A DNA stretch of 26,671 bases, taken from the IMG/VR virus record IMGVR_UViG_3300025438_000117, positions 1 through 26,671 of that record. The stretch is one strand, 5' to 3'. This document shows positions 11,237 to 24,082 of the stretch, in pieces. Every line of letters begins with the position of its first letter. Within the stretch, counting starts at the first letter, position 1. The stretch comes from a virus. The notes under the pieces are model-generated. The model had not been told where the DNA came from and searched no databases. It saw only the letters and a program-made list of their open reading frames with translations. The position numbers were made by a program, and so were the translations under genes.

Positions 11237-11758
11237 CTATTGTTTAAATCTCCATTTGAATCCTCCTGCTGTTATTCTTCTTCCTTTACAAACAGAAGTA
11301 ATATTACTATTGTGTATTTTTAACTCCTGCTCTGCCTCTTTCATACTTCTCCATATTTTTAATACTGTTCCTTGTTTATTTAATTGCTCAATGCGCCTAG
11401 TGGGTAATAGACCAATTGAATAGGCGTGGAGCATATTAAACGACCTAGTACAATATTCTAAGTTACTAATATGGTTATTAGATTTGTTGCCATCTTTGTG
11501 GTTAACATAATTTTTACCTGCTTCTACCTCTAAGAATGTTTCTGCCATCAGTCTATGTAGATACTCAGTAAAATACTTATTATCTTTCCTTAGAGATATT
11601 ATAACATAACCATCTTTTCTTGTGCTAGTTTTCCTGCGTACCCTATTGAGTGTCCTAGTTCTTCCGAGGTTATCTTTAATTCTTCTTTTAATGGAGTTAA
11701 TCTTTCCTGTTTCTGTTATTCCGTAATTTGGAAATCTTTTTAATTTTGTATGTTTCAT
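11237..11758 (-). CDS. Free-standing HNH homing endonuclease (NUMOD4/HNH type)
   Basis: This 173-aa protein would nick or cut DNA at a specific site to spread its own gene. An N-terminal 'F-P-N-Y-x-I-T-x-x-G-x-I-x-S' start (residues 9-22) is NUMOD4-like. The HNH core includes YLHRLMAETF (His68), then YVNHKDGNKSNNHISNLEYC (residues 84-103), the classic N-H-x-D-G-N-x-x-N-N pattern. The C-terminal 45 residues (TRRIEQLNKQGTVLKIWRSM, then ITAGGFKWRF) look like a NUMOD1 DNA-binding repeat. It sits between the portal gene and the capsid operon with 50 nt of AT-rich DNA upstream (11759-11808), and looks like a mobile insertion. A TATATTTG box lies just before the ATG, but no good -33 element does. 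Confidence 0.9.
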   Translation of the reverse strand: MKHTKLKRFPNYGITETGKINSIKRRIKDNLGRTRTLNRVRRKTSTRKDGYVIISLRKDNKYFTEYLHRLMAETFLEVEAGKNYVNHKDGNKSNNHISNLEYCTRSFNMLHAYSIGLLPTRRIEQLNKQGTVLKIWRSMKEAEQELKIHNSNITSVCKGRRITAGGFKWRFKQ

Positions 11759-14408: not shown

Positions 14409-14762
14409 TTAATTATCTTCTGGCTCTGTTATTGCAAATAAATCGGTAATTCTTAATATTTGGTATTCTCTTCCTTTGTAATTAATTTTAGAGCCTGCAA
14501 ATGATGAAAACAAAACAATGTCTCCCTCTTCTACTTTGTCCCATCCATCTACATTATCAGCCGTACCATCCAAGTTTTCTATTCTTTTTGATACCCTCAA
14601 TACTTCTCCTTGGTCTGTTTTAGCATCATTCCCTGCGGTTGCTACTAAAATAATTCCAGATTTAGTTTTCTGCTCCTCTGGAACTAATAACCTCACTAAA
14701 ACTCTATCGGCAAGAAGTCTTAAATTTGGTCTTTCTTTTACTTTGTTTTCGGTACTTTCCAT
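14409..14762 (-). CDS. Phage GroES-like co-chaperonin
   Basis: This 117-aa protein has the Cpn10 fold signature: residues 16-27 (RLLADRVLVRLL) match the conserved first strand, a mobile-loop region follows (PEEQKTKSGIIL, 28-39), then QGEVLRVSKR, EEGDIVLFSSFAGSKINYKG, and a final Y-x-I-L-R-I-T-D-L-F-A-I strand. It would cap host GroEL, most likely to fold the large head proteins as T4 gp31 does for its capsid protein. An extra loop at about 61-76 (IENLDGTADNVDGWDK) could enlarge the folding cage. It has its own promoter (14788-14818) and precedes the portal gene by 5 nt, so co-chaperonin and portal are expressed together. Confidence 0.9.
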   Translation of the reverse strand: MESTENKVKERPNLRLLADRVLVRLLVPEEQKTKSGIILVATAGNDAKTDQGEVLRVSKRIENLDGTADNVDGWDKVEEGDIVLFSSFAGSKINYKGREYQILRITDLFAITEPEDN

Positions 14763-14787
14763 AATATTGTGTCTTTTATTGTGTACG

Positions 14788-14818
14788 CAAATATAGGCAT
14801 CTTTTGGTTGATAACAAA
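14788..14818 (-). promoter_or_regulatory. Bacteroidetes-type promoter for co-chaperonin/portal unit
   Basis: TTTG at 14815-14818, 19-nt spacer, TATATTTG at 14788-14795, about 26 nt before ATG 14762. The -33 box overlaps the edge of the preceding terminator. Confidence 0.75.
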
Positions 14819-14851
14819 AAATGCCTTTGATACTATATCAAAGGCATTTTT
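14816..14851 (-). terminator. Strong intrinsic terminator
   Basis: AAAAATGCCTTTGATA pairs perfectly with its complement TATCAAAGGCATTTTT (16-bp stem, 3-nt loop), ending in a T run. It lies 22 nt after the stop of the secreted-protein gene at 14874 and abuts the next promoter. Confidence 0.9.
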
Positions 14852-14873
14852 ATATTTTTAGTAATTTTTCTTT

Positions 14874-15296
14874 CTAGTTGCAACTAAAGGAATTGAACTT
14901 AAATCGTTCCCTAATTGAAGTAAATGTATTGTTCTTATAATTATTTATCTGCATATCGGTTATTCGATGTCCTGTAAGTCTATAAAGAGTATCTGCATAG
15001 GTTAGCTGTTTTTCTCTATCAATACTATTAAGCCGTCCGACATCATCTACGAATAAAGCTGTTACAGAGTTTCCAGATTGAGCCGTTACAGATGTCATTG
15101 GAATAAATCCTAATTCTGTACCGATGCGTGTTTCAAAAGTAACAACGCTAACTTCTAAAGTAGCTTGAATAGAGACCGTTTCGGCATCTGCTACAATTTC
15201 AATTTTGTCTCCTACATCTTCACTATCAAAAGTGGTGGAAAATCCGCTAAAGGATAATAAGACGACCATCAAAAACATTAAATTTTTAGTCCTCAT
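14874..15296 (-). CDS. Secreted or periplasmic protein of unknown function
   Basis: This 140-aa protein has a clear signal peptide: MRTKNLMFLMVVLLSFSGFS (short basic start, hydrophobic core, small residues near 18-22). The mature part begins near TTFDSEDVGDKIEIV, is rich in Thr/Val/Ser strands, and ends in a more basic segment with one Cys (FKFNSFSCN). No lipobox or known lysis domain is visible. It is the last gene before a strong terminator. A signal peptide in a phage gene suggests envelope action (lysis, superinfection exclusion), but nothing more specific can be supported. Confidence 0.65.
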   Translation of the reverse strand: MRTKNLMFLMVVLLSFSGFSTTFDSEDVGDKIEIVADAETVSIQATLEVSVVTFETRIGTELGFIPMTSVTAQSGNSVTALFVDDVGRLNSIDREKQLTYADTLYRLTGHRITDMQINNYKNNTFTSIRERFKFNSFSCN

Positions 15297-15389
15297 TTTG
15301 ATTAAGTACTAAATTAGCCTACTCTTAAAGATTTTCGGCTTCCTCTAGTGATTGTAAAACTACAACCATTTTTTATAAATACAAAATGA

Positions 15390-15788
15390 TTAAAATAACC
15401 ATTTGATAAATTCTACAAATTTTACTGCTACTGTTATTAATCCTGCAATTATAAGAAAAGCTACAATCAATATAAACCAGATAGGAGGTCTCCCTTTTGC
15501 TTTTGCTTTGAAAGTTCGTAATTCCTCTTCTTTAGGAGCAGTACTTGGTCTTGGAGTGGTTGTGCTTTTAGATAGCCCGTTCTTAAAAGGTTTCTCTTCA
15601 TTACATCCGCAGTCCATATCAATTTCAACTTTGCCCAATCTTCTGCCCTCAACAAATTCTTCGGCAATTTTAAATGCTTTTGCTATTGATAAAGTGCCAC
15701 CATTTGTTGCTGTATCTGAAACCAATGTTAGTGCTAAGTTATCTCTCATTTGAGATGCTTCTAATGGTGTAAGTTTCTTAATATTCAT
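15390..15788 (-). CDS. C-terminally membrane-anchored protein, function unknown
   Basis: This 132-aa protein has a soluble N-terminal part (MNIKKLTPLEASQMRDNLAL), a Cys motif IDMDCGCNEEK, a Ser/Thr/Pro-rich linker (SKSTTTPRPSTAPKEEELR), and one strong transmembrane helix near the end (WFILIVAFLIIAGLITVAV) followed by KFVEFIKWLF. The layout suggests a cytoplasmic domain tethered to the inner membrane. It starts 1 nt after the upstream stop. I recognise no family; a holin-like or spanin-like role is conceivable but unsupported. Confidence 0.6.
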   Translation of the reverse strand: MNIKKLTPLEASQMRDNLALTLVSDTATNGGTLSIAKAFKIAEEFVEGRRLGKVEIDMDCGCNEEKPFKNGLSKSTTTPRPSTAPKEEELRTFKAKAKGRPPIWFILIVAFLIIAGLITVAVKFVEFIKWLF

Positions 15789-15789
15789 T

Positions 15790-16161
15790 TTATGATTTTA
15801 TTAGTTGTAATATTCTTTCTTCTATTGGTATTTGATTTATCTTATCTACTAATCTATCAAAATCCATTTTGTGATAGTCTTGGAGACGATTTAAGGAACT
15901 GTCGTCTAATCGGTCTATAACTCTGAACTGAACCTCCTCTAAATAGTCGTCAATGACCTCTTTTAAATCTAATACAAACTCTCTAGTTAATTTACTTCTT
16001 CTATTGGCAACAAATACTTCATCGTACTTTAGCATCAACTTCTCAATATAAGGAGGTACGCTATTCGCCAACTGTCTGAATAGGACGTATTTTTCAACGT
16101 TGTACCCCTCTCCATTGGTTGTCTCTGTATCTGCGTAATATTGTTGATAAAAGAGGCTCAA
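15790..16161 (-). CDS. Small helical protein, function unknown (TTG start)
   Basis: This 123-aa, mostly helical protein begins SLFYQQYYADTETTNGEGYN after the initiating codon and has repeated charged helices (LTREFVLDLKEVIDDYLEEV, LQDYHKMDFDRLVDKINQIP). No in-frame ATG exists between the promoter at 16185-16215 and residue 43, so the TTG at 16161, about 24 nt after the -7 box, is the best start. The stop is followed after 1 nt by the membrane-anchored protein gene. No family recognised. Confidence 0.55.
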   Translation of the reverse strand: MSLFYQQYYADTETTNGEGYNVEKYVLFRQLANSVPPYIEKLMLKYDEVFVANRRSKLTREFVLDLKEVIDDYLEEVQFRVIDRLDDSSLNRLQDYHKMDFDRLVDKINQIPIEERILQLIKS

Positions 16162-16184
16162 TCTATTGGTCTGTTTTGTTTTTT

Positions 16185-16215
16185 CAAATCTACTTCTTTT
16201 TTGGTTACAAACAAA
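16185..16215 (-). promoter_or_regulatory. Bacteroidetes-type promoter with TTGGTTACAAAC element
   Basis: TTTG at 16212-16215, exact 19-nt spacer, TAGATTTG at 16185-16192. A 15-nt sequence (plus strand TTTTGGTTACAAACA, 16199-16213) within it recurs at 24609-24623 before the terminase genes. Confidence 0.7.
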
Positions 16216-16217
16216 AT

Positions 16218-16400
16218 TTATTTATGAAATTTAGATTGACTTACTGGGTAATGCTTCAATTCTGACACTTTACCAAAGTCCTCGACTGCTTTTAATGTTT
16301 TAGATGAGGTGGTAGTCAATTTTTCTGTACATTGAGAAAATCGTTCCATTGCCATTGCCATTGCCATAGCTACTGCTATAATTCTATTTTTGTTTCTCAT
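16218..16400 (-). CDS. Short possible ORF with Ala-Met repeat
   Basis: A 60-aa frame starting MRNKNRIIAVAMAMAMAMER, then a polar tail with one Cys. The hydrophobic start is made by a tandem hexamer (16346-16369). It follows the structured noncoding region directly, with no promoter box in front, and ends just before the next promoter. It may be a real small membrane-associated protein, or an incidental frame within the tail of the RNA transcript. Confidence 0.4.
   Translation of the reverse strand: MRNKNRIIAVAMAMAMAMERFSQCTEKLTTTSSKTLKAVEDFGKVSELKHYPVSQSKFHK
16346..16369 (-). repeat. Tandem hexamer repeat (about 4 x CAATGG)
   Basis: On the plus strand CCATTG occurs three times in a row, then CCATAG. 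On the coding strand it encodes alternating Met-Ala and supplies several in-frame ATGs, so unit gain or loss would keep the frame. Confidence 0.8.
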
Positions 16401-16419
16401 AATTAAACTTACTTTTAGT

Positions 16420-17258
16420 GCCCCCCAGAGGTCTCGAACCCAATAATTCCATTAACGTCTTAATAACAGTTCTTGCGGTTCTGCTTTCCAATGCTAAATT
16501 CTTATTTTTATCTGTGTTCCCTGTCTAATTAAATTCGTAGTGCTTACGCAATCATCCTGCAAGATGGGACAACAATTTAACATCGACCGAACGAGGGGGC
16601 GTGTCGGAGCGGAAAGTTATAGGAATGGACTACCGATTACCAACGACTTAACATTTTACGGAAGATAGCTGTACCTAGTATAGATGTCTCTAATCTTTCG
16701 CGCTCCTGTTAGTAAGTACCCACGAGAACAATTCAAATTTCTTGCCGATGTAATCTTACTAACGTTTATTTTAAAAGAGCAGAGTACTAACCCCTATAGT
16801 CTAGTTGGCATCCCCCAATGTTTATAGACTTTTTAACTTTCGTCTGCTCTTTGTTTTTTGGTAGTAGGAGAAGTATCGAACCTCTCAATCATCCCCTTTA
16901 ATCGGTTCTGCATTAACCTTATGCTATCTACTACTTTTGAGAGTTTTAGAAATCTCCCAATCTCTCATATAAGTTTTAATTCCGTATTAACCAGAATACA
17001 CTCATTAACGATGGAATGCAGGACGTGAGAATGATTAACTTTAATTCCCAAGTAAATTATCGGTAACTCACACCGTATTAGAGCAAATTAATGGAATAGT
17101 GTTTAGCCCTATACCTGTGCATCCTTGTTGATAGACCACTTTACTGGTCGGCAGTTCAACTAATTGAAAAACTGGGTTGTAATTTTTGTCAAATGAGACG
17201 ACCTTATCTCATACCATTTAATATTTTGATTGATTGCTCATAATGGCTAAAGAGCAAT
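16420..17258 (-). ncRNA. Candidate large structured noncoding RNA (about 840 nt)
   Basis: Bases 16401-17263 hold no credible ORF on either strand, in a genome otherwise almost gapless. Instead the stretch is packed with perfect or near-perfect stems. Going down the minus strand: 17233-17258 (7 bp), 17193-17212 (6 bp), 17155-17168 (5 bp, 4-nt loop), 17134-17149, 17093-17115 (7 bp, one mismatch), 17061-17075, 16984-16999, 16938-16967 (6 bp), 16861-16934 (7-bp closing stem, tRNA-like), 16774-16852 (10-bp closing stem with 2 nested stems), 16708-16763 (9-bp closing stem) and 16420-16600 (GCCCCCT with GGGGGGC, enclosing a 7-bp helix at 16529-16580 and a GTAA tetraloop hairpin at 16541-16550). Minus-strand transcription is inferred from the neighbours and from the GNRA loop. 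No promoter lies within, so it is probably transcribed from 17864-17894. It resembles in size and setting the large phage-borne RNAs GOLLD and ROOL; identity is unproven. Confidence 0.6.
16861..16934 (-). ncRNA. tRNA-like module inside the structured region
   Basis: A 74-nt unit is closed by GTAGTAG/CTACTAC (7 bp). It has a D-arm-like GCAT-AAGGTTA-ATGC hairpin containing GG, and a T-arm-like 6-bp hairpin with loop TTCGATA. The middle section (GAACCGATTAAAGGGG) does not form a normal anticodon stem and no convincing anticodon can be read. GAACC can instead pair with GGTTC of the T-arm. I therefore treat it as a tRNA-derived or tRNA-mimicking module, not a functional tRNA. Confidence 0.45.
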
Positions 17259-17263
17259 AATCT

Positions 17264-17665
17264 TTATGTTATATCTTCAATTCCGTGTATTGCTACAAAA
17301 CTGCTATTAGAATTTAAGCGGTGCTTACTGCAACCCTCAAATAATTCTTTAGCTTTATCTAAATTGTCTGCCTCCACTTCTATCTCTCTACGGTACGTTA
17401 TTAGGTATTTTCTGCCCTCGTAAGCGACCATCGGCATATCTCCGCCATTCTCTTCAATCCAACTAGAGATGTATCGTCCAAACTCGTCTGCGGAGTTCTC
17501 ATCTTCCCATTCGGCTTGTGTTGTAGAAATTCTCCTAACAACTCCTATCTCTACTGCTCTTTCAATTATTGCAAGGCTTCTTTTGTCTCCATAGAAACCG
17601 CCCTTTAAGGACGGTCTATTTAATGCTTCTTGTACGGCTGTTACCGTTAATACTGCTAATAACAT
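17264..17665 (-). CDS. Small phage protein, function unknown
   Basis: This 133-aa protein starts MLLAVLTVTAVQEALNRPSL, continues GGFYGDKRSLAIIERAVEIG and an acidic helix (EWEDENSADEFGRYISSWIE), and ends with a beta/alpha segment YLITYRREIEVEADNLDKAK. The latter resembles the small 'y-x-v-x-v-x-A-x-s-x-e-e-A' fold of DpnD/PcfM-like domains, but I am not certain. The start overlaps the stop of the preceding small gene as TAATG (17663-17667), so translation is coupled. It is the last gene before the structured RNA region. Confidence 0.6.
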   Translation of the reverse strand: MLLAVLTVTAVQEALNRPSLKGGFYGDKRSLAIIERAVEIGVVRRISTTQAEWEDENSADEFGRYISSWIEENGGDMPMVAYEGRKYLITYRREIEVEADNLDKAKELFEGCSKHRLNSNSSFVAIHGIEDIT

Positions 17666-17811
17666 TATGCTACTGGTATTACGTTATAACCTAAAATCTT
17701 TGCAGTCCGCTCTACTCCATCGTCAGAAGATACGGCCTCTGTTGCTGTTTGAAGTGCCATTAAAGATAATATGCTAACTTCTTCTACTGTGTACGTTTTT
17801 AAATTTTTCAT
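17665..17811 (-). CDS. 48-aa protein, function unknown
   Basis: The frame can be extended to an ATG at 17862, but that ATG is only 1 nt from the -7 box of the promoter at 17864-17894 and would not be transcribed in full. ATG 17811 is preceded by the leader element (AAAATCCAGTCAG-ATG) shared with three other genes here, giving MKNLKTYTVEEVSILSLMAL and ending KILGYNVIPVA. It is a small acidic helical protein, coupled by TAATG to the next gene. Confidence 0.55.
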   Translation of the reverse strand: MKNLKTYTVEEVSILSLMALQTATEAVSSDDGVERTAKILGYNVIPVA

Positions 17812-17863
17812 CTGACTGGATTTTAATTTGTTTAAGTTGGTATGGTTCGTTCCTCCCAACATT

Positions 17864-17894
17864 CAAAGGTACAAAAATTTTGTTTATAAACAAA
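17864..17894 (-). promoter_or_regulatory. Promoter with palindromic operator (copy 3)
   Basis: TTTG (17891-17894), 19-nt spacer, TACCTTTG (17864-17871). The -33 box is the right arm of a perfect 16-bp palindrome TTTGTTTATAAACAAA (17879-17894), also found at 18923-18938 and 21267-21282. Confidence 0.8.
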
Positions 17895-17922
17895 ACAAAT
17901 TATAACTTTTTTTGAAAAAATT

Positions 17923-18438
17923 TTATTTTAGTGGTCTAACTTTCACACTAAACTCTAATATATCGTCTCCATCTATGTACTCCTGCAACGTTGGTACTAC
18001 TATGTATAAAGTATTATCTTCAATGTAATAATCGGTGTAGATGTCCTCTATAACCGTTCCTACTACTCTTTCAACTGCTTCATTGATTTGCTTCGACTGG
18101 TCTAACTTACCGTTACCGTCAATCTCTACTGCTTGGCTGTTAATCCCTCCTTTAATTGCTTCGTGCAGAAGTTCTTTTAAAGAGTACAATTTAGCGAAAT
18201 TACCGCACTCACAAGCTATCTCTAAATCATTTTCTTTAGCAAAAGCTATAACTTCCTGCTCTAGCACAAATTCAATGGCTCTCTGCTGTTCTCCAGTTAG
18301 CTTTTGGTTTTTAGGTAGCATCATTGATATTGATCCATTGTGCATCTGAATAATTCCAGTAATGTGGCTATCCTGTAGGAATTTATTTACTCTATGCTCT
18401 ATTTTAGCATTTAGTTGTTCTTGTTGTATGTGGTTCAT
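17923..18438 (-). CDS. Phage protein, function unknown
   Basis: This 171-aa protein starts MNHIQQEQLNAKIEHRVNKF, has a Cys pair in IACECGNFAKLYSLKELLHE, and an acidic C-terminal half with strands (YIEDNTLYIVVPTLQEYIDG). Its start overlaps the preceding stop as TAATG at 18436-18440. It is the second gene of the two-gene unit led by the promoter at 18907-18938. No family recognised. Confidence 0.6.
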   Translation of the reverse strand: MNHIQQEQLNAKIEHRVNKFLQDSHITGIIQMHNGSISMMLPKNQKLTGEQQRAIEFVLEQEVIAFAKENDLEIACECGNFAKLYSLKELLHEAIKGGINSQAVEIDGNGKLDQSKQINEAVERVVGTVIEDIYTDYYIEDNTLYIVVPTLQEYIDGDDILEFSVKVRPLK

Positions 18439-18878
18439 TACTTAAAGAATTGTTGGTTAGCATGAGTTACTGCAAAGCCTCTATTTATGAAACTGCAAAT
18501 AGAGTTTTCTACTTTCTCACAAAGCACCTCTTCTGATGGTACTATTTCAATTTTGTTCTCTGTCTTTACTACGTGATAATACATATCTAATATCTTTTTA
18601 ATTGGTAGAATGCACTTATATCTCTTATGGTCTTTAATTACATAGAACTCGTCTTTAGTAATCTCTTTAGAAGTTTTAAACTCTTCTTCTAATTGCTCTA
18701 CTGACATCGCTTGGTAATCGTCCCATCCTATAATAACTCGGACATCTGAAACACTCTTTTCAAATTTATACATATGAGCCACTTGGTCGTCATCGTTTTG
18801 TTCAGAGGCATATCTTCTGTTTACTATGTTGCATAATTTCTGTAATCTTTCTAAATTAGTGAATTTACTTTTACTCAT
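18438..18878 (-). CDS. Phage protein, function unknown
   Basis: The frame reaches an ATG at 18965, but the promoter at 18907-18938 lies inside that extension, so I take ATG 18878, preceded by the shared leader element ACCAGTCAAG-ATG. This gives a 146-aa protein: MSKSKFTNLERLQKLCNIVN, then an acidic middle (WDDYQAMSVEQLEEEFKTSK) and FYVIKDHKRYKCILPIKKIL. No family recognised. It is coupled to the next gene by TAATG. Confidence 0.6.
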   Translation of the reverse strand: MSKSKFTNLERLQKLCNIVNRRYASEQNDDDQVAHMYKFEKSVSDVRVIIGWDDYQAMSVEQLEEEFKTSKEITKDEFYVIKDHKRYKCILPIKKILDMYYHVVKTENKIEIVPSEEVLCEKVENSICSFINRGFAVTHANQQFFK

Positions 18879-18906
18879 CTTGACTGGTTTTAATTGTTTA
18901 ACAAAA

Positions 18907-18938
18907 CAAAGATATAAAAAATTTTGTTTATAAACAAA
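18907..18938 (-). promoter_or_regulatory. Promoter with palindromic operator (copy 2)
   Basis: TTTG (18935-18938), 20-nt spacer, TATCTTTG (18907-18914). It overlaps the perfect palindrome TTTGTTTATAAACAAA at 18923-18938. Upstream flank AATAAAAGTAAGTTTTT is shared with the copy at 21267-21282. Confidence 0.75.
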
Positions 18939-18951
18939 TAAAAACTTACTT

Positions 18952-19236
18952 TTATTCCGTTCCATCGTGTTTACGGTGGCACGGTCTGCCTCTCATAGTG
19001 ATATTACTTACATCGTAGGCTGATTCTGACATTCCTTGCTTTTGACATTGATCTACGGATATATCATGAGAACAGTCTATTGGTTTACAATCGTTCTGTT
19101 TGCAGTCCTCACAAAAGACGTAGCCGTGTTCATCTATCATCTGCTCAATCTTTTCAGCTTTGGCTTCTCTAACTCTGGCATCAATTACCGTCTTTAGGAT
19201 GCGCTCTCCGGATGAGGTTTGGTAACTATTTGCCAT
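18952..19236 (-). CDS. Small HNH-like zinc protein
   Basis: This 94-aa protein has an N-terminal helix region, then VFCEDCKQNDC (Cys42, Cys45), KPIDCSHDISVDQC (His57) and YDVSNITMRGRPCHRKHDG (Asn78, Cys86, His87). The order C-x2-C ... D-C-S-H ... N-I ... C-H is that of compact HNH (beta-beta-alpha metal) nucleases found in phage recombination or replication regions. The residue expected as the general base is His57. A non-catalytic zinc protein is possible. It overlaps the MutS-I-like gene by 11 nt. Confidence 0.65.
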   Translation of the reverse strand: MANSYQTSSGERILKTVIDARVREAKAEKIEQMIDEHGYVFCEDCKQNDCKPIDCSHDISVDQCQKQGMSESAYDVSNITMRGRPCHRKHDGTE

Positions 19237-19507
19237 TAGTTACATTTTCGCATACTGCTACTTTATCCTTTAATTTAACTAGATTTTCTAAATGTTCATC
19301 AAATCTAAACTCTTTAAATTTAGATATTAGTATAGATTTCGTAGAGCCTTTAGTAAGTACCCTAGAATAACAATCTACATCAAGTACCTGTGCGAGTAGT
19401 TTGGCATCATTGTCGAAAGTTATATAGTTATCTTCCGAGTGTAATAAAACTATAGCATCAGAATATTTAGGCTTAATTTTATTGTATTGATTAAATAGTG
19501 TCTCCAT
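19226..19507 (-). CDS. Stand-alone MutS domain-I-like protein
   Basis: This 93-aa protein starts METLFNQYNKIKPKYSDAIV (ATG 19507, overlapping the upstream stop as TAATG; a TTG three codons earlier is less likely). The stretch Y-N-K-I-K-x-K-Y-x-D-A-I-V-L-L ... D-N-Y-I-T-F-D-N-D-A-K-x-L-A-Q-V-L closely follows the MutS mismatch-binding domain I pattern (K-x-x-y-p-d-a-l-L-l-f-r-x-G-d-F-Y-e-x-f-x-x-D-A). The canonical G-D-F-Y-E is E-D-N-Y-I-T here, so the Phe-x-Glu mismatch wedge is absent. It ends VCENVTNGK. Single-domain MutS-I proteins occur in Bacteroidota mobile elements and phages; function unknown. Confidence 0.65.
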   Translation of the reverse strand: METLFNQYNKIKPKYSDAIVLLHSEDNYITFDNDAKLLAQVLDVDCYSRVLTKGSTKSILISKFKEFRFDEHLENLVKLKDKVAVCENVTNGK

Positions 19508-19689
19508 TATCTCCAAATATTAGCGTGGTTATTCTTTTGAGTTTTACGACTGTGCTTACTCACTTTGTTTTTATGTGAAAGACTTTTGGTGCAGTCATTT
19601 CGGTCATCAAATATCTTACAACCAGAGACCCTGTTATGCTTATCATATTCGGGACATTTATCTCCCGTTCCACATCTTTTACTTGCCAT
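19507..19689 (-). CDS. Small Cys-rich basic protein
   Basis: This 60-aa protein has four Cys in its first half (MASKRCGTGDKCPEYDKHNR, SGCKIFDDRNDC) and a basic His/Lys tail (HKNKVSKHSRKTQKNNH). The Cys spacing suggests a small metal-binding fold, perhaps nucleic acid binding. It starts 2 nt after the upstream stop and is coupled to the MutS-I-like gene. Confidence 0.5.
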   Translation of the reverse strand: MASKRCGTGDKCPEYDKHNRVSGCKIFDDRNDCTKSLSHKNKVSKHSRKTQKNNHANIWR

Positions 19690-19691
19690 AA

Positions 19692-19892
19692 TTAAGCGTT
19701 TATATCGGTTAAGTAGTATTGCGTAATAGTTTTAGATGAGGTATAATTTTTTACTATAATACCTTTCTGCTCATTTTCTTCATTGTAGTAAAAATGCTTT
19801 TTAGCACTCTCTAAATGTTCCGTATTTAGAAAATCTGCACTTGTATTAGTAAAGATTTTGTAAAACGTTTTGCTTGTTACTTCTATGTTCAT
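19692..19892 (-). CDS. 66-aa protein, function unknown
   Basis: Starts MNIEVTSKTFYKIFTNTSAD and ends YTSSKTITQYYLTDINA. It has no recognisable motif. The start overlaps the upstream stop (ATGA, 19889-19892). It is a member of the packed operon running from 21226 to 18952. Confidence 0.5.
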   Translation of the reverse strand: MNIEVTSKTFYKIFTNTSADFLNTEHLESAKKHFYYNEENEQKGIIVKNYTSSKTITQYYLTDINA

Positions 19893-20401
19893 TTATCTAA
19901 AATTTTTAGTGCTTCCTCATCCTTATCCTTATCTGACAATCTACCTAAAATGTCGCAGCCTCTATCATCACAAATTATAGAACCTTGTTGCCTATTTTCT
20001 TTAAACAGATTAGTCCCGAAAAAATGGGTTTTAGGTTCGTGATAATATGCACCTAATAATTTATGTGCAATTTTAGCCTCTACAATTTTAGTGTCTATTT
20101 CATTTAACTTTAAAATGCTCTTATCTTTTGCAGGAGTTGTGTAGGTTAAACTTCCATAATAGCCGTTCTGCACAACTACATATTCAAAAGTTTTAATATT
20201 AACATAGAAATCATAATGCCCAGCTAATTCAGAACCCTCTATAGGCAAGAAATTATATTCTCTAAACCCAAAAATATGTTCAGTTAGAACTGTAATGTTG
20301 CCACTACTGGCTCTTACTGTATCTAAAGATTTACCGTTCCATCCGCTTATTCTACTAAACGATTTAGATTGCAGGAACTCCATTGTTACTTCTGTTCCCA
20401 T
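19889..20401 (-). CDS. Phage protein, function unknown
   Basis: This 170-aa protein starts MGTEVTMEFLQSKSFSRISG. The middle is beta-rich (YDFYVNIKTFEYVVVQNGYY) and the end is acidic (SDKDKDEEALKILDK), with two Cys in SIICDDRGCDILG. No family recognised. It overlaps its neighbours by TAATG (20401) and ATGA (19889). Confidence 0.55.
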   Translation of the reverse strand: MGTEVTMEFLQSKSFSRISGWNGKSLDTVRASSGNITVLTEHIFGFREYNFLPIEGSELAGHYDFYVNIKTFEYVVVQNGYYGSLTYTTPAKDKSILKLNEIDTKIVEAKIAHKLLGAYYHEPKTHFFGTNLFKENRQQGSIICDDRGCDILGRLSDKDKDEEALKILDK

Positions 20402-20751
20402 TACATCAAAAGGTATTTAGCGTAAAGGTCTCCAAATTCGTGGATTAGTTTGCGTTCGTTACCATCATCTGCTCTACGTAGTGCTAAAGCCATAGCCTGT
20501 GCAAATGAGCCTCCATACTTTTGACAATTATTATAGATGAGGTTGATGTCATCTCTAGTTGGATTAATTTTAGCTTTCTCGCTATCGTCAATCTCTACAA
20601 TTAGGGTTTCTATACTTCTACCTAATCCTAAATCGGTCTTGTTTCCAACTGTAGTATCAACTAATTCAGTTCCCTTTAATTGGGGAACTCGTAGAAGATT
20701 TCTAACTTTAGTTCCTAGTTTCTGTACTTGGTCTGTGTTTAGTTCTCTCAT
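20401..20751 (-). CDS. Phage protein, function unknown
   Basis: This 116-aa protein starts MRELNTDQVQKLGTKVRNLL, has an acidic middle (TLIVEIDDSEKAKINPTRDD) and a C-terminal helix region (FAQAMALALRRADDGNERKL). It begins 1 nt after the upstream stop. No family recognised. Confidence 0.55.
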   Translation of the reverse strand: MRELNTDQVQKLGTKVRNLLRVPQLKGTELVDTTVGNKTDLGLGRSIETLIVEIDDSEKAKINPTRDDINLIYNNCQKYGGSFAQAMALALRRADDGNERKLIHEFGDLYAKYLLM

Positions 20752-20752
20752 C

Positions 20753-20950
20753 TTATAGTCCGCTTATAAAGTTATAATGTTTAGTGCAGTATGCACATAC
20801 TTCTCTACATTTAGCATCTACTGGCATATCTCCAATTATTGCTGCTATTATTTTGTGGCTTCTTTCTTGGGTAACTTCTTTGCCCATTACTAAATTGTAA
20901 CCGTGTAGTGTATCGTTTATAAATCCGATAATAGTTTTTGCTTCTTTCAT
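20753..20950 (-). CDS. 65-aa protein, function unknown
   Basis: Starts MKEAKTIIGFINDTLHGYNL and ends with CREVCAYCTKHYNFISGL, where three Cys and one His could bind a metal. The ATG is preceded by the shared leader AAAACCAGTCAAA, although it is the second gene of its operon. No family recognised. Confidence 0.5.
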   Translation of the reverse strand: MKEAKTIIGFINDTLHGYNLVMGKEVTQERSHKIIAAIIGDMPVDAKCREVCAYCTKHYNFISGL

Positions 20951-20962
20951 TTTGACTGGTTT

Positions 20963-21226
20963 TTATTGTTTAGTTGTAATAAAGCTATCTACTCGTAATC
21001 CAGATAACTTAAAAAGTTTTTGATTGTATCCTTTCACATCGCTAATGAAGTCATTATTACAAGTTCCTGTCATTAAAGTTGCAGCTTTATTTGCCTCCTC
21101 TAAAGTAGGGTAAGGTGTAAATCCATCATAAGGTTCTTGCCCCTCATTCTGGTAAGTAGTAAATACCGTTTTAGATTTGAAGTTCTCATTAATCTGTAAA
21201 GTAACGTCTGTAATTCGTGTTCTCAT
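20963..21226 (-). CDS. 87-aa protein, function unknown
   Basis: This is the first gene of the operon led by the promoter at 21252-21282. It starts MRTRITDVTLQINENFKSKT, with a middle QEPYDGFTPYPTLEEANKAA and an end GLRVDSFITTKQ. The predicted fold is small alpha/beta. The ATG follows the leader AAAACCAGTAAATT. No family recognised. Confidence 0.5.
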   Translation of the reverse strand: MRTRITDVTLQINENFKSKTVFTTYQNEGQEPYDGFTPYPTLEEANKAATLMTGTCNNDFISDVKGYNQKLFKLSGLRVDSFITTKQ

Positions 21227-21251
21227 AATTTACTGGTTTTGTTTAACAATT

Positions 21252-21282
21252 CAAAGGTACAAAAATTTTGTTTATAAACAAA
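21252..21282 (-). promoter_or_regulatory. Promoter with palindromic operator (copy 1)
   Basis: TTTG (21279-21282), exact 19-nt spacer, TACCTTTG (21252-21259), about 26 nt before ATG 21226. The palindrome TTTGTTTATAAACAAA occupies 21267-21282. The sequence from palindrome through -7 box is identical to copy 3. Bases 21283-21379, between this promoter and the terminase stop, hold nothing else I can name. Confidence 0.8.
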
Positions 21283-21379
21283 GAAAAACTTACTTTTATT
21301 TCATTTTAGCCTAAAATTACAATCCCAATGAGGGCGTGGGCTAGGTCTCCATTGCTTCTACGGTGGGTACAACTTTTTT

Positions 21380-24082
21380 CTAATCTAATCCCTCGCCTCC
21401 CAAGAAAGCAGCAAAACCTCTATTCTCTGCTCTATATCCTTTTCGTACCCAGTTCCAATATACAACTGCATCTGCTACGTTAGGAGATTTACCGCCTAGA
21501 CGTTTCTTAATATTCTCTTTTCCCTCTATGGTTATCATAGAATTAGATGCTTCAAACTTTGGTATGCAGAGTTCCTTACATAATTGGGCTAACATCACTT
21601 TATCATCTCCAAGGTCTATGTTAATAAAACCTCTACGGATGTCCTCACGAAGTTCCCAATACATTTGCCCTCTTAAATTCTGAAATCGGTACATTGGTGC
21701 AAGTATCTTTTTTCCTGCCTCCCAACGCTCCTCTTTGGGTATAACTTCTGTCCATTGTCCTCCAGATAATGATTGAACTCTAAAGTTGTCATCTACAAAA
21801 GCGTTTACTGTAGCCACTCCTACTCCTACACTATCCACGCCCACGAATTGAGCATTAATATTGTAGTCGTCTAATACTGGAACTTCATAATCACAATAAC
21901 CTTTAATTCCTAGTGCTGTACTGTCCATATATAGATTATAAGCAAGGTGGGTAGCGTTCTCACATTGGAACTCAAATACTGCTTTAATCGTGTTAAGTTC
22001 TCCAAATACAAGTGAGGCTTTATCTCCATTGGTAGAGTTTGCAACATCCACTCCTACTGCATTCTGACTACTGACTTTCGGATCATCTGTATTTTCTGTA
22101 TTAACACATTTTTCTATCCACTCCATCTTAATCAAACTATCCGTAGATTGTGCAGGACTGATGCCTCGTACCATTGCCTGCCATAGTGGGCTACTTTCTC
22201 CGTAGTTGTCGCTTCTTGAATTGATAGAAGATTGAGTAATAGCCCCTGCAAACATCTCATTTTGGTTTACTATGTTTGGGTGGTCAAGACTGGATGCCCT
22301 AATTGCAAAGCAGTCTTTTTGAATTGAGAACTGGTGTAAAGCATCGAACTCGTTGTTAGGGTTTCCTACTCCTATGATGAAGTTAGTGTTACCAGTACAA
22401 GTGTTTTGAAGGGCAGTTATAATTGATGGTGGAATACCTGTACACTCCTCCAGAATGATTAACATAAACTTCCTGTGGAAACCTCTGGCTTTATCTTCAC
22501 TCTCTTTGTTAGAAGATGTCCCTGTAATGAAACCAGTCGCCTGCCACGCATTAGACCTAGCGAGTGTTTTCTCCTCTTCGGTCATACTATCGTTAATGTT
22601 CCACTCCATCGCTAACTTTAGTTGCCACTTTTGAGAGTTTGGTCTCAATTTCTTAATCTTTGGATATAGCATACTAATTTCAGACCAAAGACCGCCTTTC
22701 AACTGGTTTTCTGACGGGCAAGTTGTTAGTACCAAAGAATTATCAAAGCAATCTAAAAACCATAATACGATACGAGCCAAGCAATATGTTTTACCTGTAT
22801 TGTGAGTAACAACAAAATTACTCATTAAATATAAATTATTCCCATCTAGTTCAAAACCGTAATAGTCTCCTACTTCCTTAACCTTTACATTAAATCCTGT
22901 AAATAGTACATTTTTATTGTGTATTCTTTTGGGTGTTTTCTTTCTAGGTACTAATACTGGTACTATATTACAATATCCGCTGATGTTGATTCTGTAGACC
23001 CCTTTGAAATCGTTTTCATAATACTGACTATTAGCCATAAAACCCAAACTTCTGCATAAGTATAAAATATCTTCTGAAAGTCCTTTTAATGCCGTAGAAT
23101 ACTCAAAGCCTTTCCCATCACGGATGCCGTCGCTATCTATAAGACCTGCTAGCAGTTTAAGTCTGTCTTTCCTGTTAGAAGTAAGATAATTTTTTGGTAT
23201 TCTTTTTTCCTTTTGTACTAAAGTTGTTTCTAAGTATCTCTTTAAGTTATTTCTGCCTCCTCCGTAGGTTATTAGATAATTAGGAGTTCTAGTACCTTGA
23301 CTGTCTCTTTTACTTACCCTAGCCCCTATGGTTTGTGCAAATTCATATATGTAAGCTACAATCTCTGCATCTATATTAGTTATTGCAGGAGAATTTGTAC
23401 TGCCATCTCCTAGCCATAACCCCATAAAGTAAGGACAATACGCTAGCTTCTTCTTTCTGAAACTTACTCCAGTACTGTGCTGCTTATAATTATGTTTTTT
23501 CCTGCTGCTCCAATTGAGGTAGTCTCTCACACTAACATTTTCTGTTAGTGGATAACTCCTACCTTTTATTTTTTTATCTCCTGTTAGTTTAAGATTTAGA
23601 ATGTGAGAAGCGTTTACAGTATATGGTTCTCCTTTGTTGGGTACTATTTTGTACATTAACTCTTTGCCTCTATGTAATTTAAGTACATTTCTAGGTTTAG
23701 AATCATCCCCCATAATCTTGTCTCCTATCTCTATGTCTTGAACCTTTTTAATGCTGCCGTTGTGCATTAAAATACCTTGTCCGTAAGCGTGGCATCCTGT
23801 ACCGCTCTCTACTGCTACATTCTTATAAGTTGGTAGTTTGCCCTCCGATACTTCTTTGTAAGATGCTCCAAGGATATTCCAAGCTGTAGCAAGTGGGTCT
23901 TTAGTTCCGTCCCATTCGTGAGTATCGTAGCCCTCATTTAGAGACCATAGAAAATCTTTTGGGTCTTCCCCTAAACGCTCTTCTAACCATAGCATAGGAT
24001 TTTTACGCCATCGTTCATTCTGCTTTATTTCAGCAAGCTGTTTTAATGCTCTTATTTGTCTCGGACTATACTTTTTAGCCAT
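21380..24082 (-). CDS. terL: Terminase large subunit interrupted by an intein
   Basis: The 900-aa precursor leaves a 568-aa terminase after intein removal. TerL is the ATPase-nuclease motor that cuts and pumps phage DNA into the prohead through the portal. The Walker A motif is split: ...NVAVESGTG ends before residue 97 and TGKTYCLARIV resumes at 429, giving SGTG-TGKT when joined. Walker B is MLIILEE (540-546). The RNase H-like nuclease has GVDVANSTNGDKAS (Asp679), FVGVDSVGVG (Asp750) and SPNVADAVVYWNW (Asp871), the three expected acidic positions. The ATG start gives MAKKYSPRQIRALKQLAEIK, a normal helical start. The small subunit gene lies upstream at 24171. A TACCTTTG box in the 88-nt gap could provide an extra promoter. 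Confidence 0.93.
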   Translation of the reverse strand: MAKKYSPRQIRALKQLAEIKQNERWRKNPMLWLEERLGEDPKDFLWSLNEGYDTHEWDGTKDPLATAWNILGASYKEVSEGKLPTYKNVAVESGTGCHAYGQGILMHNGSIKKVQDIEIGDKIMGDDSKPRNVLKLHRGKELMYKIVPNKGEPYTVNASHILNLKLTGDKKIKGRSYPLTENVSVRDYLNWSSRKKHNYKQHSTGVSFRKKKLAYCPYFMGLWLGDGSTNSPAITNIDAEIVAYIYEFAQTIGARVSKRDSQGTRTPNYLITYGGGRNNLKRYLETTLVQKEKRIPKNYLTSNRKDRLKLLAGLIDSDGIRDGKGFEYSTALKGLSEDILYLCRSLGFMANSQYYENDFKGVYRINISGYCNIVPVLVPRKKTPKRIHNKNVLFTGFNVKVKEVGDYYGFELDGNNLYLMSNFVVTHNTGKTYCLARIVLWFLDCFDNSLVLTTCPSENQLKGGLWSEISMLYPKIKKLRPNSQKWQLKLAMEWNINDSMTEEEKTLARSNAWQATGFITGTSSNKESEDKARGFHRKFMLIILEECTGIPPSIITALQNTCTGNTNFIIGVGNPNNEFDALHQFSIQKDCFAIRASSLDHPNIVNQNEMFAGAITQSSINSRSDNYGESSPLWQAMVRGISPAQSTDSLIKMEWIEKCVNTENTDDPKVSSQNAVGVDVANSTNGDKASLVFGELNTIKAVFEFQCENATHLAYNLYMDSTALGIKGYCDYEVPVLDDYNINAQFVGVDSVGVGVATVNAFVDDNFRVQSLSGGQWTEVIPKEERWEAGKKILAPMYRFQNLRGQMYWELREDIRRGFINIDLGDDKVMLAQLCKELCIPKFEASNSMITIEGKENIKKRLGGKSPNVADAVVYWNWVRKGYRAENRGFAAFLGGEGLD
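22799..23794 (-). other. Intein with LAGLIDADG homing endonuclease (332 aa) in the TerL Walker A motif
   Basis: Residues 97-428 of the TerL precursor. The first residue is Cys97 in block A (CHAYGQGILMHNGSIKKVQD). Block B is YTVNASHILNL with the catalytic His. The two endonuclease motifs are YFMGLWLGDGST (about 218-229) and KLLAGLIDSDGI (about 309-320). The end is block F/G (NNLYLMSNFVVTHN) with His-Asn, followed by Thr as the +1 extein nucleophile. All residues needed for standard class 1 splicing are present, so it looks active. Insertion inside the P-loop makes the unspliced protein inactive. Confidence 0.95.

Follow-up and report, generated by a model that had tools for sequence, protein, structure and literature searches.

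GOLLD and ROOL are large RNAs that assemble into RNA-only cages of which the function is unknown, and GOLLD is characterized by a multimeric RNA cage and by induction during lysis. GOLLD RNAs are located in phages, are often longer than 800 nt and sometimes carry tRNAs in a linker (PMC12286853), and one mycobacterial GOLLD contains a pseudo-tRNA (PMC6582537). ROOL is an ornate RNA, likewise large, that occurs in phages and in prophages and often lies close to tRNA islands (PMC12286853). In vibriophage ICP1, a phage without intact tRNAs, an ORF-less RNA of ~800 nt is the top transcript (PMC7567579).

The window analysed here is the whole of a 26.7-kb viral record (26,671 nt) that encodes a tail sheath, a major head protein, a portal and a terminase and has most of its genes on the minus strand; it is a myophage fragment, probably of a phage of Bacteroidota. 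Several of its genes were of separate interest. The terminase gene (21380-24082, minus strand) is interrupted at about residues 107-428 by an intein, some 320 residues long, that combines Hint and LAGLIDADG homing endonuclease domains and resembles inteins of enterobacterial phage helicases and terminases. A 96-aa protein (19226-19516, minus strand) consists of MutS domain I alone (E 3e-14), so that this phage encodes a mismatch-repair domain standing by itself, and a GroES-like (Cpn10) phage protein is encoded at 14409-14762 (minus strand, E 8e-16). Between the portal and protease genes lies an HNH endonuclease gene of the I-HmuI kind (11237-11758, minus strand), which is present in one related record (L003) and absent from a near-identical one (L002), and thus is a mobile insertion.

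A preliminary description of this DNA had proposed a large structured RNA within the window. We favour, with evenly divided confidence, the reading that 16401-17263 is an undescribed large phage noncoding RNA of GOLLD-like architecture, not itself a member of GOLLD, that would form the 3' part of an operator-controlled operon.

Comparison with described large RNAs

Rfam scans of 16401-17263, at gathering as well as permissive thresholds, matched no family. The covariance-model search that had been proposed as a check (GOLLD, ROOL, OLE, HEARO, tmRNA and RNase P RNA) came out negative for every model, as it did for group I and group II introns. For GOLLD (RF02032), the best chance match reached 9.1 bits and lay outside the stretch, and for ROOL (RF03087) there was no match at E 10 in a single-family search that gave no positive-control signal either. 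The window holds no tRNA island.

The likeness to GOLLD is one of layout. Like GOLLD, the stretch is a phage locus of about 800 nt, free of ORFs and with an internal tRNA relative, as some GOLLD members have a tRNA or pseudo-tRNA inside (PMC6582537, PMC12286853), and the arrangement of a 5' part, a linker and a 3' part can also be proposed for it. Unlike GOLLD, it fails the RF02032 model and lies in a window lacking a tRNA island. With ROOL it would share the character of a large ornate phage RNA (PMC12286853), whereas no internal pseudo-tRNA is described for ROOL in the literature passages drawn on here. The ICP1 transcript likewise occupies an orphan ORF-less space of similar size in a phage without intact tRNAs (PMC7567579), but its expression has been shown, while the present stretch is known from sequence and was compared with ICP1 only through the search of the phage collection. 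The stretch is thus GOLLD-like in architecture and may work like these RNAs, without being shown to be a member: the earlier remark that it recalls GOLLD and ROOL is apt as an analogy (a phage setting, ~800 nt, a pseudo-tRNA inside), and membership found no backing in the Rfam models.

Coding content and composition

The earlier observation of about 860 nt without a credible ORF proved exact. Read in the minus-strand sense, 16401-17263 comprises 863 nt devoid of ORFs and is the sole gap of 350 nt or more, the window being otherwise gap-poor, within a part of the virus genome tightly packed with genes, which we count in favour of a large RNA. Stop codons of all three kinds occur 13 to 28 times per frame in all frames, and G+C at the three codon positions is flat (36.8, 37.2 and 38.0%), compared to 47.8, 38.8 and 33.6% in the next gene. 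Because of these stops in every frame and this absence of codon periodicity, the stretch is noncoding. A protein-coding region with an unusual code, or a pseudogene, has coding-like G+C and nothing more to recommend it and, against the same stop codons and flat profile, is hardly credible.

Overall G+C amounts to 37.3%, compared to 35.9% in coding DNA and 25.7% in the other intergenic DNA (1437 bases), so that the stretch does not look like ordinary spacer; high G+C without codon periodicity is what a structured RNA would be expected to show when the genome is AT-rich. The main competing explanation is decayed or neutral DNA, i.e. a former tRNA gene (tRNA-Lys-like), perhaps with a lost gene that has not yet been deleted, in which long stems arose by chance. 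We regard this as possible though doubtful. A former gene could have left the coding-like G+C, but codon periodicity has left no trace, and the scarcity of gaps in the rest of the window also speaks against decay.

A degenerate tRNA and the predicted fold around it

The firmest new result is that the element at the middle of the stretch is a degenerate tRNA (Table 1). A tRNA covariance model built from 38 real tRNAs (model R1, filters off) gave it 24.2 bits (E 1.7e-5; match at 16860-16933, minus strand), and the runner-up within the window reached 11.1 bits. Applied to 459 kb of DNA from related phages and prophage regions, the model scored a tRNA-Met at 72.3 bits and a second match at 35.7 bits, with no other place exceeding 12 bits. 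ARAGORN did not report the element, and RF00005 had no match to it even at E 10. As in a phage tRNA gene or degenerate tRNA, all three arms (acceptor, D and T) are recognizable, with the conserved T8, A9, GG and TTCGA; the D-arm has a GCAT/ATGC stem with GG in its loop, and the T-arm reads AGAGG-TTCGATA-CTTCT. Unlike in such a gene, three of the five anticodon-stem pairs are broken and position 33 is an A, so that U33 is lost, and these two defects indicate that the element is not a normal decoding tRNA. The same defects would suit decayed DNA, but the loss is confined to the anticodon arm and has left the acceptor, D and T arms intact.

Table 1. Features of the stretch and its surroundings, ordered along the minus strand
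Feature	Position	Strand	Details or evidence
Bacteroidota-type promoter TTTG-19-TACCTTTG with palindrome TTTGTTTATAAACAAA	17864..17898	-	Nearest promoter upstream of the stretch (at 17871)
Two small genes (17665-17862 and 17264-17665), no known family	17264..17862	-	Between promoter and stretch
Candidate large noncoding RNA	16401..17263	-	ORF-free; G+C; flat codon-position G+C
5' part of candidate RNA	16935..17263	-	Hairpin and stem-loops, predicted fold
Pseudo-tRNA, acceptor GTAGTAG/CTACTAC	16860..16934	-	tRNA covariance model
Long hairpin domain, 10-bp closing helix AAAGAGCAGA/TCTGCTCTTT, inner 6-bp and 4-bp stems	16774..16852	-	Fold z -2.2
Domain, 9-bp closing helix GTTAGTAAG/CTTACTAAC	16708..16763	-	Fold z only -1.3
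Domain, closing GGAGCG/CGCTCC and GAAAG/CTTTC, 11 bp with one bulged base	16606..16706	-	Predicted fold
Domain, closing GCCCCC(T)/(G)GGGGGC, 6 Watson-Crick pairs and one wobble	16420..16600	-	Predicted fold
60-aa ORF directly downstream of the stretch	16218..16400	-	Ahead of next promoter at 16192

A scan for T-arms with an acceptor strand behind them gave three places in the whole window, two of which lie in the stretch. Two such composites in one stretch occurred in 4 of 20000 shuffles; a compact acceptor combined with a complete T-stem occurred in 2 of 20000. Restricted to the compact form, the scan matched only true tRNAs when run on 774 kb of other DNA. The second, weaker composite closes the domain nearest the 3' end, with a T-arm-like TTCGAGA hairpin immediately ahead of the 3' strand and a T-stem of which three of five positions pair. 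It had no match with the tRNA model and is a possible second tRNA-like element; its presence is a further point against decay. The tRNA-like parts mentioned in the preliminary description thus come down to one real degenerate tRNA and this weaker acceptor and T-arm pair. An array of decayed tRNAs was also considered and rejected, a single place in the stretch standing above noise with the tRNA model.

Positions 16420-16446 bear on a different reading, in which the stretch is a DNA site, namely an origin, a packaging site or a phage attachment site bearing the 3' end of a host tRNA. The resemblance of GGGTTCGAGACCTCTGGGGGGCAC to a tRNA 3' end speaks for attachment, but the 21-base core had no match at up to one mismatch, and one match at two mismatches, in 395 Bacteroidota genomes (among which the phage's own host may not be), and a tyrosine integrase is absent both from the fragment, which is an incomplete genome, and from the 73.7-kb closest relative. 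We consider a DNA site very improbable.

In the predicted fold, 16934-16420 is filled by five consecutive domains with short linkers and closing helices of 6-11 pairs. The closing helices named earlier do exist, including that of 7 bp at 16861-16934 next to the 10-bp, 9-bp and six-pair-plus-wobble helices of Table 1, and the GTAA tetraloop hairpin was recovered as a GTAA loop on a TGC/GCA stem near 16541-16550. The last domain has an inner 11-pair helix (16574-16584/16490-16500), and the 5' part is predicted to form a 7-bp hairpin directly after the upstream stop codon (17233-17258) and stem-loops at 17134-17149, 17080-17110 and 16971-17003.

The assertion that stems are denser than in neutral DNA was borne out only in part. 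Folding energy of the whole stretch departs weakly from that of shuffled sequence (minus strand z -1.4, plus strand z -1.8, 20 shuffles each), and among 60 more shuffles 2 equal it. The plus strand thus does about as well as the minus strand, and these results count against a large RNA. Windows of 100 nt are ordinary in folding energy across the stretch, except at about 16761-16950, where it is clearly low. Helices of at least 8 bp show no excess (2, compared to 1.4 in shuffles) and those of at least 9 bp a slight one (2, compared to 0.37). However, the stretch has 6 well-defined helices of 6 bp or more that enclose 50-200 nt, compared to 1.7 +/- 1.3 in shuffles (6 was reached in 1 of 110) and at most 3 in 26 other tiles of the window; because this measure was picked after the fold had been seen, the excess is no more than suggestive of a structured RNA. 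Near-chance energy of the whole region and near-chance total helix density speak for decay, and the excess of domain-closing helices speaks against it.

The region of low local energy brings in a further alternative, namely that function is confined to the tRNA-like element with the hairpin beside it (16770-16938), which would act as a processing signal for RNase P or another RNase in a polycistronic transcript, and that the rest is untranslated spacer. The low energy is found in no other part, and tRNA-like folds are classic RNase P substrates. Nevertheless, about 690 nt of high-G+C noncoding DNA would be left unexplained and the closing helices go on to 16420, and we judge this alternative unlikely.

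Relatives, promoters and the proposed operon

Searches of phages, plasmids, viral contigs (by pattern), the records of relatives, the closest relative phage and 395 Bacteroidota genomes yielded no DNA homologue of the stretch; they returned only matches of ~14-40 bases, which we read as chance. Exact copies of two motifs of the stretch were absent from viral contigs, and searches with the flanking genes found no relatives. This lack of homologues in the collections searched favours decay and counts against a large RNA. The records of near-identical strains (L002, L003, L006 and L007) all stop short of the stretch. Around the terminase-portal junction, the closest relative (L064-L067, a 73.7-kb record with gene order in common; terminase 55%, portal 42%) carries a series of small genes of its own, and it has no gap of at least 350 nt, which likewise counts against a large RNA. 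A single-sequence model of 16770-16938 matched a coding gene in the relative phage (L066) and a host tRNA-Lys, and both were rejected as not homologous to the stretch, although the tRNA-Lys match counts as evidence for the tRNA-like nature of 16860-16934. Gut phages with a related portal carry ORF-free, AAGGCC-repeat-rich regions of about 500-640 nt (L004 970-1573, L005 1043-1536 and L047 755-1393) that are 70-83% identical to one another in aligned parts. These were rejected as relatives of the stretch, their sequence being unrelated to 16401-17263, and had no Rfam match.

Bacteroidota-type promoters (TTTG, 19 bases, TANNTTTG) occur at 21259, 18914, 17871, 16192 and 14795, from which the host is probably a Bacteroidota bacterium. 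In the minus-strand block 14770-21290, the palindrome of Table 1 sits between the -33 and -7 elements of all five, perfect at the first three and imperfect at 16192 and 14795, and the sharing of this operator-like sequence suggests that one repressor controls the block. The relative phage carries similar TTTTGGTATATATCAAAA elements at its promoters. That the stretch shares its strand with the genes and lies behind a controlled promoter counts for a large RNA, whereas the fact that neither a promoter of its own nor a terminator was found for it counts against. The regulated expression suggested earlier is plausible through the promoter at 17871, no further promoter of this type lying between it and 16192, and would not come from a promoter proper to the stretch.

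In our favoured reading of a large phage RNA, the minus strand would be read out as the 3' part of an operon starting at 17871. The RNA would consist of a ~330-nt 5' part, the observed pseudo-tRNA in the middle and a predicted ~460-nt 3' part, of modest statistical support, in which four consecutive domains would each be closed by one long helix. Since its broken anticodon arm bars normal codon reading, the pseudo-tRNA would most likely serve as a tRNA-shaped module. It may be an RNase P processing point, where a cut at about 16934/16935 would free the RNA from the upstream mRNA, or else a linker insert as in GOLLD RNAs. Its function would resemble that of GOLLD, ROOL and the ~800-nt RNA of ICP1, all large phage RNAs of which the role is unknown.

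More tentatively, and with some doubt, the stretch could represent a new class of large ornate Bacteroidota-phage RNA, unrelated in sequence to GOLLD and ROOL and possibly a self-assembling RNA complex. Such a class would have arrived at the same plan, tentatively drawn as a linker with a pseudo-tRNA between a 5' domain and a 3' part of several domains. Should 16401-17263 be merely decayed DNA, it would be an ordinary remnant. If it is an independent phage RNA with the plan of GOLLD and ROOL and a pseudo-tRNA within, this plan would recur among phages and the tRNA-shaped module would be marked as important.
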